DNA from: Sphaerochaetaceae bacterium
GTDB taxonomy: Bacteria > Spirochaetota > Spirochaetia > Sphaerochaetales > Sphaerochaetaceae
Reading direction: 5' to 3'
Length of the DNA: 64,000 nucleotides
Assembly: GCA_024405015.1 (NCBI GenBank)
Contig: JAKSPE010000003.1
Span: forward strand, 1 to 64,000
Shown here: piece by piece, positions 2,671-55,975 of the stretch
Layout of the letters: each line of letters starts with the position of its first letter
Numbering within the stretch: position 1 is the first letter of the stretch
Program-made: the position numbers and the translations under genes
The notes under the pieces: model-generated
Database searches by the model: none
Seen by the model: the letters and a program-made list of their open reading frames with translations, nothing else
What the model was told of the DNA's origin: nothing

Positions 2671-2708
2671 CAAGCCGTTGCACATATTGTGTGAAGGCTT
2701 TTCTTTTT
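2671..2708 (+). terminator. Rho-independent terminator of the moa operon
   Basis: AAGCC pairs with GGCTT, with an inner TTGCACA/TGTGTGAA stem, and a T-rich run (TTTTCTTTTTT) follows. It lies 30 bases after the HD gene. The first copy of the interspersed repeat begins directly after the T-run. Confidence 0.75.
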
Positions 2709-2710
2709 TG

Positions 2711-2847
2711 CGATTGTGGGTCGGCGGTGAAATGCCTGTGCATTCTAGCGGACGGATGCGCCAGGTTGGCAGGATAGCCCAACCGAGGCGCATGTTCGCG
2801 TCCCAAAGGGAGCATGCATCAGGCCTTGCACGGCCTACACACATGAG
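2711..2847 (+). repeat. structured interspersed repeat, copy 1
   Basis: An approximately 137 bp element that begins CGATTGTGGG and ends CACATGAG. It recurs at 3800-3935 (about 93% identical by eye), 49707-49841, 50385-50528 and, truncated, near 55774. Its core folds into a long hairpin: ATGCGCC (2756-2762) pairs with GGCGCAT (2787-2793), with an inner GGTTGG/CCAACC stem around the conserved loop CAGGATAG. The 3' end abuts the stop codon of the nuclease gene. The repeat encodes no protein. Its function is unknown. Confidence 0.88.
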
Positions 2848-2848
2848 A

Positions 2849-3667
2849 CTAGCTGAGAATCTCTCTGATGATGGTCTGTATCATGTTCGTTGAGATTGTC
2901 GTTTCCTTGCTCTCAAACGTCACGATCAGATTCTTCCCAATGACAAAACCGGACTTCGCATACTGCTCAATCTTCCATAGGTTCCTTTTTCGGTATTTGT
3001 CATCGTCCATCTTTCCGAGATGTTCCCAGATGATGATCTGACCTGTACTTTTCTTTAGGATATAGAAATCCGGATAGATCACCTCCCCATCCTTTGTCTT
3101 GAATGCAGGCTCATAGTGATAGGGGATTCCTGCTTTGATGAGATTCTCTCCAATCAGAAGCTCTATCTTGGATCGGACATGTTCACCTCTACTGGTAACA
3201 AGCTCACAGTCAATAGGCATTGAGTTTGTGGAATACCTTCTGTTCTGCCACTGTTGGGCAAACTGATCCTCCACCGCATTCGGATACACATATGGCTTGA
3301 TTGCCTCAGGAAGCTGCTCATAGACATCATTGATGTCAGGGCATTTCGACAGAATCCTGATGCCTTCATCCAAAATGGCAATCTCCTTTCTTGCCGTAGA
3401 GACAAGCCTTTTCTCGTAGGTGTTTTGGGCAAGTCTCTTCAGAGTCTGTGTGTCTGACTTTGCGATATACTTCTCTGGGGTGCCATCGGAATGAACCCGA
3501 TAGAATTGGGGTGCTCTTTTTCCACATCGAACCCTTAGGGTATCAATGATGTGTGGTGTCTCTCTGTCATTGATACGATTTTCAATGGCAGCCTTCATTT
3601 CCTTGATGTTTTTGATAATGGTCAAAGTATTCACACAGGCTCTATACCAGGGAACTGTCAAAATCAT
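2849..3667 (-). CDS. PD-(D/E)XK-like nuclease family protein between inverted repeats
   Basis: A 272-residue protein. The C-terminal 120 residues look like a restriction-endonuclease fold: a Glu in VRSKIELLIGENL, then YHYEPAF, the Asp of IYPDFYIL, and IIWEHLGKMDD in place of the usual ExK. Later come a Tyr-Arg-Lys segment and GKNLIVTFES. I recognise this as a family of uncharacterised bacterial proteins with a predicted nuclease fold, and no substrate is known. The N-terminal half is basic and helical. Inverted copies of the repeat flank the gene and its stop codon touches copy 1, as in a mobile cassette. No strong ribosome site marks the start. An internal ATG at 3598 is possible. Confidence 0.72.
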   Translation of the reverse strand: MILTVPWYRACVNTLTIIKNIKEMKAAIENRINDRETPHIIDTLRVRCGKRAPQFYRVHSDGTPEKYIAKSDTQTLKRLAQNTYEKRLVSTARKEIAILDEGIRILSKCPDINDVYEQLPEAIKPYVYPNAVEDQFAQQWQNRRYSTNSMPIDCELVTSRGEHVRSKIELLIGENLIKAGIPYHYEPAFKTKDGEVIYPDFYILKKSTGQIIIWEHLGKMDDDKYRKRNLWKIEQYAKSGFVIGKNLIVTFESKETTISTNMIQTIIREILS

Positions 3668-3799
3668 TTTGGGAAATGGGCAAAATGATATGGTGATTCA
3701 ACAATTATTGATGTTTATTTTCTGAAATGTTGAAAAAGACAACAAAAAGAAGAGAAAAAAGAGTTTCTTGTTGAAATTGAATGAGACGATTGAATCTTG

Positions 3800-3935
3800 C
3801 TCATGTGTGTAGGCCGTGCAAGGCCTGATGCATGCTCCCAAAGGGACGCGAACATGCGCCTCGGTTTGGCTATTCTGCCACCTGGCGCATCTGTCCGCTA
3901 GAATGCACAGGCATTTCACCGCCAACCCACAATCG
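3800..3935 (-). repeat. structured interspersed repeat, copy 2
   Basis: Near-identical to copy 1 but on the opposite strand, so the CACATGAG ends of both copies face the nuclease gene. The hairpin core is kept (ATGCGCC/GGCGCAT), with an inner GGTGGC pairing with GCCAaACC. It sits just upstream of the nuclease gene and just past the terminator of the leftward yfcE operon. The rest of the 349-base gap (3668-4016) is A/T-rich DNA and that terminator. Confidence 0.88.
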
Positions 3936-3950
3936 CCCAATCATCAAATG

Positions 3951-3999
3951 AAAAAGGCTGCACTTGCAGTCAATTGACCACTATGCAGCCTTTGTTTGT
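3951..3999 (-). terminator. Rho-independent terminator of the OsmC-yfcE operon
   Basis: Read leftward, AAAGGCTGCA (complement of 3984-3993) pairs with TGCAGCCTTT (complement of 3953-3962) and runs into a T-rich stretch. It lies 18-66 bases beyond the yfcE stop. The GGCTG/CAGCC stem resembles three other terminators in this window. Confidence 0.75.
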
Positions 4000-42513: not shown

Positions 42514-42704
42514 ATAACAATTTCCATGAAGAGTGCACGAGTGACAAGCACGTTGACTGCACAACAACCTACCATTTTTGGCAAGGTGCTAAAGCTTGAT
42601 TCGATGGAACTGAGAAACGCATGCAGCCCATCGGAGACGATGGGTTTCTTTTTTTCTGAACAAGGGAATCCCATGGTCACTCTTTGTGGAAGAAGGAGTG
42701 ACAA
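42514..42704 (+). ncRNA. structured leader RNA, candidate riboswitch/attenuator
   Basis: A leader of about 190 nt with GTGCA/TGCAC (42533-42537, 42558-42562) and ACCT/AGGT hairpins, then a Rho-independent terminator (CCCATCG-GAGA-CGATGGG-T-run, 42627-42655). After it, GTCACTC (42676-42682) pairs with GAGTGAC (42696-42702) and hides the GGAG ribosome site of the next gene. The same GAGTGAC also occurs at 42539-42545, so the anti-ribosome-site strand has two possible partners. I recognise no known riboswitch class. A stand-alone small RNA that ends at the terminator is the alternative. Confidence 0.5.
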
Positions 42705-49706: not shown

Positions 49707-49841
49707 CGATTGTGCCATTGGCGGTTCGATGCCTGTGCATTCCAGCCTGCCAGGGCCTTCGGGGCAGGATAGCCCAAGTGAGGCAGGCATGGCGTCCTGA
49801 AAGGGGTATGCATCAGGCCTTGAACGGCCTATGCACATGAG
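49707..49841 (+). repeat. structured interspersed repeat, copy 3
   Basis: A diverged copy that keeps the ends CGATTGTG and CACATGAG and the loop GCAGGATAGCCC. The outer stem has changed on both sides, to GCCTGCC (49745-49751) with GGCAGGC (49782-49788), so pairing is kept by compensating changes. A further hairpin, AGGACCC/GGGTCCT (49840-49861), follows its end. It faces copy 4 across a 540-base gap. Confidence 0.85.
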
Positions 49842-50384
49842 GACCCTGCTTCATGGGTCCTGCAGTCGACCGGTTTGAAGGTCCGTAGGTGTGTATTTTT
49901 CATTGTAAGTTATTGTTTCATATAAAATTATAAATAGGTCTCTAGGTTATGAGGTCTGTAGGTCCGTCTTATAAATACAGACCTTCGCACCTATGTGCCG
50001 ACAGACCTTTTTTCAAGTTGTTTTGCAATAACAAGTTATTTCGTTGAGAGCAGACCTTCAGACCTAGTCACCGGTCGACCTGCAAACCTAAAGGATCATC
50101 AACAGCCATCTCAAAAGTCTGCAACCCGACCAGCCGTGAAGTCTGCAAGTCCTGCTATATTTTATTTAATTAGTTCTAATATAATGATTTAACTTTTATG
50201 TTTCTCTAATTTCCAAAGTCTGAAAGTCCGCAACCCAGTGTTTTTCGTACAGGGTTGCAGACTTGCGGACTTGTCAAAATGGCAATTGCTTAACAATAAA
50301 TGCTTATATTATAGAAACTTACATTTTTTCATGCATCGGTTTCACACTTGCAGACTGGTCGGGTTGCGGACTTTAGGCAAGGCT
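49842..50384. repeat. gene-free block of nested imperfect palindromes
   Basis: No convincing gene lies here. Short words of the type AAGTCYGCAACCC or AGGTCTGTAGGTCC recur in both orientations. One strong hairpin joins 50216-50236 to 50252-50272 (AAGTCTG...CAACCC with GGGTTGC...GACTT). Others join 49951 to 50007, and 50117 to 50371 (GCAACCCGACCAG with its complement). GTCGACCGGT near 49866 is mirrored near 50070. The block is bounded by inward-facing repeat copies 3 and 4 and could fold as one large cruciform or RNA. Confidence 0.7.
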
Positions 50385-50528
50385 CTCATGTGTATAGGCC
50401 GATGTAAATCCTGATGCATGCTCCCCACCGGGGACGCGACAGGCCACTTTTGAGGCGGGGCTATCCTGCCCGCCCTTGTGGCCTACGCCGCTAGAATGCA
50501 CAGGCTTCCCACAGCCTACCCACAATCG
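50385..50528 (-). repeat. structured interspersed repeat, copy 4
   Basis: A diverged copy on the minus strand. The outer stem is AGGCCAC (50441-50447) with GTGGCCT (50478-50484), a third base-paired version of the same stem, around GGGCGGGCAGGATAGCCCC. Its CACATGAG end faces left towards copy 3. The other end lies 22 bases before the terminator of the leftward PHP gene. Confidence 0.85.
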
Positions 50529-55714: not shown

Positions 55715-55779
55715 CATTGTTTTCCCTTGTGAGGGAAAATTTCTTTAAAAGTTCATGAGGATTATCCCCAATCCTCATG
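55715..55779. repeat. two hairpins before repeat copy 5
   Basis: TTTTCCCT-TGTG-AGGGAAAA (near 55720-55740) and GAGGATT-ATCCCC-AATCCTC (about 55757-55776) are perfect small hairpins. The second includes the end of repeat copy 5, as a similar hairpin does at copy 3. The stretch 55551-55715 holds nothing else that I can name. Confidence 0.5.
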
Positions 55780-55872
55780 TGTACAGACAGTTCAAGGCCT
55801 GATGCATACCCCTTTCAGGACGCCATGCCGGGCTCGCTTGGGCTATCCTGCCCCGCAGGCCTTAGCAGGCTT
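55774..55872 (-). repeat. structured interspersed repeat, copy 5 (truncated)
   Basis: A minus-strand copy that keeps the CACATGAG end, TGATGCAT and GGGCAGGATAGCCC, but lacks the CGATTGTGGG end and part of the outer stem. It shares GGCGTCCTGAAAGGGG with copy 3, so those two are close relatives. It has no facing partner nearby. It lies between the convergent hydrogenase and WYL genes. Confidence 0.75.
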
Positions 55873-55904
55873 CCATTTTTATCTGGGTGCTGTGTTTTGA
55901 GTAA

Positions 55905-55975
55905 AAATTAAGAAAAACTCCTGCATTACGCTGAGTTTTTGAAAAAAATTGAGAAAAACTCCTGCATTGTGCCAA
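55905..55975. repeat. short direct repeat with hairpin
   Basis: AAAATTAAGAAAAACTCCTG at 55905 recurs with one change at 55946 (AAAATTGAGAAAAACTCCTG), a 41-base period. The first copy forms a hairpin, AAAAACTC (55913-55920) with GAGTTTTT (55933-55940), that could end transcription in either direction. Confidence 0.55.

Follow-up and report, generated by a model that had tools for sequence, protein, structure and literature searches.

Two copies of a repeat face each other across a single nuclease-like gene in the genome of a gut spirochaete of the Sphaerochaetaceae. What is the relation between the gene and the repeat, and does the one act on the other? The stretch of DNA analysed, 64,000 nt long, is called the window below, and its features are collected in the table. 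The initial annotation saw the two best-preserved repeat copies as flanking exactly one gene, and a single minus-strand ORF does lie between copies 1 and 2, which are 94% identical over 138 nt (lengths 137–138 bp). The stop codon of this gene (2849–2851), described there as abutting copy 1, is one base away from it. Of the two possible starts, GTG is likelier than the ATG at 3667. Copies 3 and 4 were also correctly described as an inward pair around a gene-free block, since the 543 bp between them lack a credible gene; the ORFs there are chance ones and none exceeds 65 aa. Inverted iterons of the AGTCTGCAACCCG and AGGTCTGTAGGTCCG types, one after another, make up this block. Copies 1 and 2 sit between convergent genes for the HD protein and the phosphoesterase, and copies 3 and 4, on our reading of the sequence, between convergent genes for cupin-like and PHP-like proteins. 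Both pairs are bordered on the outside by terminator-like hairpins with T-runs. A covariance model (CM) of the repeat matched the window copies with E-values of 1e-31 to 1e-34, well beyond what chance would give. Elsewhere in the window, the truncated hairpin adjoins a 41-bp direct repeat (55774–55970); contig C3 (L190) has a block that is 89% alike over 379 bp. A SAM riboswitch (RF00162) lies at 42521–42610.

Table. Positions of the repeat copies, the nuclease gene and adjoining features in the window
Feature	Position	Strand	Remark
Intrinsic terminator of upstream HD gene	2671–2709	+	directly outside copy 1
Hairpin repeat copy 1	2710–2847	+	position 138 faces the nuclease gene's stop codon
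PD-(D/E)XK nuclease gene	2849–3634	-	261 aa from GTG
Alternative nuclease ORF	2849–3667	-	272 aa from ATG at 3667
Leader of nuclease gene	3635–3799	-	GGTATAxxxxxxGT box at start codon; TTGTTGAAA/TTTCAACAA words
Hairpin repeat copy 2	3800–3936	-	inverted relative to copy 1
Intrinsic terminator of phosphoesterase gene	3937–3995	-	directly outside copy 2
Hairpin repeat copy 3	49707–49841	+	
Gene-free block between copies 3 and 4	49842–50384	.	inverted iterons
Hairpin repeat copy 4	50385–50528	-	
Truncated hairpin repeat copy 5	55774–55895	-	

The host assembly, a metagenome bin of 2.03 Mb in 48 contigs (85% complete), carries about 60 copies of the hairpin. The CM gave 71 matches genome-wide, some of which are reverse-strand echoes, and because contigs frequently break at hairpins the copy number and some of the junctions are uncertain. 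Copies occur solo, as inward pairs 140–960 bp apart and as back-to-back pairs 6–17 bp apart. Three of them (L189, L191 and L197) are chimeric, with 5' and 3' halves from different subfamilies. Each copy folds as one long, imperfectly paired stem that ends in an apical loop and bears a small side hairpin, that is, a three-way junction (z-scores of -3.3 to -6.6 across copies, -3.9 for the window copies). Among 47 distinct copies, pairing was present in 94% of cells compared to 25–46% when the partners were slid, and both sides changed in 22 of 33 pairs. G-U combinations far outnumbered A-C combinations at paired positions (102 versus 8), which indicates that the fold is selected on the strand that runs from CGATTG to CATGAG.

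Covariation together with a G-U signature confined to one strand would also be expected of an RNA. The folded strand could serve as a guide or structural RNA, or as an antitoxin made of RNA, and partner the nuclease in defence or in a toxin-antitoxin system; 81 of 81 homologues have a nuclease domain like that of PDC-S68, a candidate defence protein. We regard this as improbable. The two copies at the gene are oppositely oriented, so that one transcript could not contain both in the same sense, and most hairpin copies lie far from the gene. The covariance models of Rfam 15 gave no match to the hairpin, and the corresponding repeats in G018, a genome of another genus described below, are AT-rich iterated palindromes.

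The boundaries of the hairpin are sharp. Conservation ends within one to two bases on both sides, falling from 1.5–2 bits inside the unit to ~0.3–0.5 at the first outside base and then to ~0. Because this drop is seen across 42–43 different flanks, the hairpin is a discrete unit that stands in many mutually unrelated contexts. The repeat-bounded, cargo-carrying cassettes proposed in the initial annotation were right in outline, but the unit of dispersal is the single 138-nt hairpin, found solo, inward and back-to-back, and several gene-free blocks look like what is left of nuclease elements, not like foreign cargo. Insertion sites show a weak T at -1 and otherwise no recognisable common sequence. 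Of 30 hairpin clusters, 20 lie in convergent and 2 in divergent gaps, and a terminator is aimed at the hairpin in 22 of 56 flanks compared to 25 of 400 random positions, most of which are coding.

The genome carries eleven divergent paralogues of the nuclease gene, ten of them full-length, with ~30% mutual identity and invariant motifs of catalytic type in common. A hairpin lies within 270 bp of the gene in 10 of the 11, and in seven of these ten it is at most 100 bp from the stop codon; rough arithmetic from 60 copies in 2.03 Mb gives a chance expectation of ~4–5% of genes. The eleventh paralogue (L014) has a tandem repeat of its own, with relatives elsewhere in the genome. Similarity among the nucleases correlated with similarity among their downstream hairpins (Mantel r = 0.61, p = 0.007) and weakly with that among the upstream hairpins (p = 0.07). 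A covariance model built from the hairpins of this genome (CM R1) detected diverged hairpins in five sister genomes, all nuclease-bearing and frequently with the hairpin beside the gene, and none in five other nuclease-bearing genomes of the genus or in 30 genomes outside it. Three nuclease-hairpin pairs of different subfamilies occur in the genome G009. When the loci of relatives were searched with a hairpin HMM, the only matches besides this genome's own loci were L073 and L111, both in G009. Two other genomes, G005 and G006, each hold a sole hairpin, which lies 11–12 bp from a nuclease stop codon and has the same inverted orientation to the gene as at the window locus. These two loci are orthologous. 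Set against the counter-case raised in the initial annotation, orthologues without repeats among conserved neighbours, this one locus traced between the two sister species has kept its neighbours on one side, but the hairpin as well.

Whether the same repeats flank the gene in relatives has a divided answer: sister species have diverged hairpins, but other genera have different repeat families. In G018, copies of a palindrome unrelated to R1 stand on either side of one nuclease gene, and about a dozen more are dispersed through that genome. Flank repeats, a different one at each gene and all with copies elsewhere, are present also at five further G018 nuclease genes (five of 7 loci were tested, the fifth only in part), which brings the tested paralogues with their own dispersed flank repeats to six of six; five control gaps, together 897 nt, yielded a single weak additional match. 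Each paralogue has a distinct repeat family, most clearly in this second genus; the replication outside the original genus covers few genomes, and its controls are small. In Butyrivibrio hungatei a 172-nt palindrome lies upstream of one nuclease gene and an 82% copy of it upstream of a second. A generic hairpin-depth scan of 120 distant loci gave no clear enrichment and was not discriminating, and a blastn search of 80 distant loci found no gene enclosed by an inverted pair.

The window protein had no match of any kind in Pfam. It has the RSKxE, PDF and EHxG signature of PD-(D/E)XK proteins, of which SKxE, DF and EHxG are invariant or nearly so across 81 homologues, and its AlphaFold model (pLDDT 93) has a C-terminal restriction-enzyme-like nuclease domain. 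By motifs and modelled fold the protein belongs to the PD-(D/E)XK superfamily, in agreement with the initial annotation, and nuclease activity is predicted. The nuclease-domain fold is weakly like those of the type II restriction enzymes DrdV and MunI and of the R2 retrotransposon endonuclease (E 0.01–0.1), whereas the element has neither a reverse transcriptase nor a methylase. The same domain is homologous to the end of PADLOC PDC-S68 (E 2e-27), with only the last ~120 profile residues matching. PDC-S68 (~1200 aa at full length, a size not reached here) and HEAT_CxxC_PDDEXK, both PADLOC candidate defence proteins, are much larger or differently built; the proteins studied here stand alone at 261–340 aa, differ in the N-terminal domain and have cognate repeats. 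For the N-terminal half, structure comparison gave no relative that would mark DNA-binding. A tyrosine-integrase-like (AP2) domain was suspected there from topology and was unsupported by the structural comparison.

All ten paralogue starts are directly preceded by a leader of the form ..AAAATGGTTTC..CAGTT....GGTATA....GT followed by ATG or GTG (window 3635–3660; L010–L018). The GGTATA box is promoter-like in sequence and may serve as one, and the position of this TATA-like box ~12 nt from the start codon suggests a leaderless mRNA. Orthologous nuclease pairs from two sister species gave dN/dS values of 0.10, 0.10 and 0.23; the nuclease is under purifying selection. The gene is present in 11 of 11 genomes of the genus and in few other genera of the family, with further homologues scattered patchily among Treponema, Fibrobacter, Lachnospiraceae and others from gut and rumen. 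Carriage by phages or plasmids was considered and set aside: their collections gave only partial or domain-level matches, and full proteins were nearly absent.

A patchy distribution over several phyla would suit a selfish gene of the homing-endonuclease kind, which would cut empty convergent gaps and be copied into them with its hairpin ends by repair, the hairpin then blocking recutting. The PD-(D/E)XK fold, with its matches to restriction-enzyme-like and R2-endonuclease-like folds, and the preference for convergent gaps fit this picture as well, yet hairpin copies outnumber nuclease genes by about five to one, the paralogues occupy many different sites, and the weak T at -1 is all that a common target would have to offer. 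We consider homing of this kind distinctly unlikely.

Some hairpin pairs have clearly moved by other means. The gene-free pairs L029, L033 and L042 and their relatives sit inside an ISL3-type MITE, which in L042 has an 8-bp target duplication, AAAATAAT. Enclosed as they are in this MITE with its duplication, these pairs were spread by the insertion sequence and not by the nuclease. The MITE has the ends GGCTCTTCACG../..CGTGAAGAACC and is carried by L042:1420–1960 and relatives and by L161, L162, L163 and L166; the 28-bp MITE end is found also in the sister genomes G001, G004 and G007. Could all hairpins be passengers of insertion sequences in this way, with the nuclease genes merely sharing the same intergenic niches? 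Near-identical copies do exist. The window copies and most other hairpins, however, have no ISL3-type ends, and the linkage to the nuclease holds in 10 of 11 genes as well as in sister species and a second genus. This reading is disfavoured, and we give it very little probability.

Other gene-free blocks point back to the nuclease gene. L023 and L189 have a short stretch in common with the leader and first codons of the window nuclease gene, L202 shares the leader of L015 and L017, and L197 that of L012. Judged by these shared stretches, all four look like internally deleted nuclease elements. Inspection of the flanks of hairpin pairs found no direct repeats. Orthologues of the HD gene in G005 and G007 are without the element, but their downstream neighbours differ, and in G002 (L236:1–110) the first base of a hairpin coincides with the stop codon of the HD-gene orthologue, whose TGA the hairpin seems to provide. 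One comparison of G009 sites for empty sites covered 4 of 7 sites; since these sites differ from those of G010 and G002 by larger insertion islands, it gave no base-exact junction. The empty sites and target duplications sought at orthologous gaps since the initial annotation have not appeared, neither as a base-exact empty site nor as a duplication at hairpin ends.

The repeats might instead be static. A retained nuclease useful to the host, for example in chromosome maintenance, autoregulation or self/non-self marking, could use them as binding or protection sites, which would have spread by recombination and gene conversion and not through the nuclease. Purifying selection, the one vertically inherited locus, the convergent and terminator-proximal position of the hairpins and the paralogue-specific motifs in the promoters speak for such a role, and the chimeric hairpins suggest recombination. 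It accounts poorly for sharp unit ends in more than 40 unrelated flanks, for unrelated repeat families that arose independently beside different paralogues and for the existence of deletion derivatives, and we hold it to be unlikely.

We believe that each nuclease probably acts on its cognate palindromic repeats, the two together forming a mobile system that works like REPIN-RAYT, although our confidence in this is modest. Each single-copy, divergent PD-(D/E)XK protein would recognise its own palindromic repeat family, here mainly the 137–138-nt hairpin. By analogy with REPIN-RAYT, we infer that the nuclease binds the repeat and cuts it when it is extruded or single-stranded, and that this drives dispersal. 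Cutting would help copies to reach intergenic sites that lie behind terminators between convergent genes, or to stay in them, and repair at these gaps may, again as in REPIN-RAYT, leave new hairpin copies. The parent element would be the gene with its flanking hairpins, and gene-free pairs and solo hairpins would be its non-autonomous offspring. A stronger claim, that the PD-(D/E)XK nuclease disperses its cognate hairpin with no need of any other enzyme encoded by the element, seems to us possible but rather doubtful; the element has no DDE, HUH, tyrosine or serine recombinase or reverse transcriptase.

REPIN-RAYT systems consist of single-copy, divergent enzymes beside their own palindromic repeats, with gene-free intergenic copies, inverted doublets and single-strand folding (PMC3116915). 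The present system has the same organisation: each nuclease gene stands beside its own dispersed palindromic repeat family, with gene-free intergenic repeats, inverted doublets and folding of a single strand. In contrast, the enzyme here is a PD-(D/E)XK protein whereas RAYT is an HUH/Y1 tyrosine transposase, the unit is 137–138 nt with a three-way junction compared to 20–40 nt for REP, the inward pairs stand 140–960 bp apart, and copies number in the tens rather than the hundreds. Because enzyme fold and unit size differ in this way, we claim a likeness in mode of working and not membership. The gene-free, internally deleted derivatives beside gene-bearing elements also recall MITEs and their parent insertion sequences; here, however, the hairpin ends lack a target duplication, the element lacks a DDE transposase, and hairpins occur also solo and back-to-back. 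A search of the open-access literature, with subscription papers and preprints outside its scope, returned REPIN-RAYT papers and none that connects dispersed repeats with a PD-(D/E)XK nuclease; as evidence of novelty this is weak. Taken together, the genes and their repeats look like a mobile repeat system of a kind not described before, similar to REPIN-RAYT but with an unrelated enzyme.

For many of the repeat families in bacterial genomes, no maker is known. If dispersed hairpins belong with an enzyme of another superfamily, each paralogue having a distinct repeat, then a lifestyle like that of REPIN-RAYT has arisen more than once in evolution, and an uncharacterised nuclease family of several gut and rumen phyla gains a testable substrate. 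If the nuclease alone does disperse the hairpin, this would be a mechanistically new form of DNA movement across gut spirochaetes, and possibly in Lachnospiraceae and Fibrobacter.
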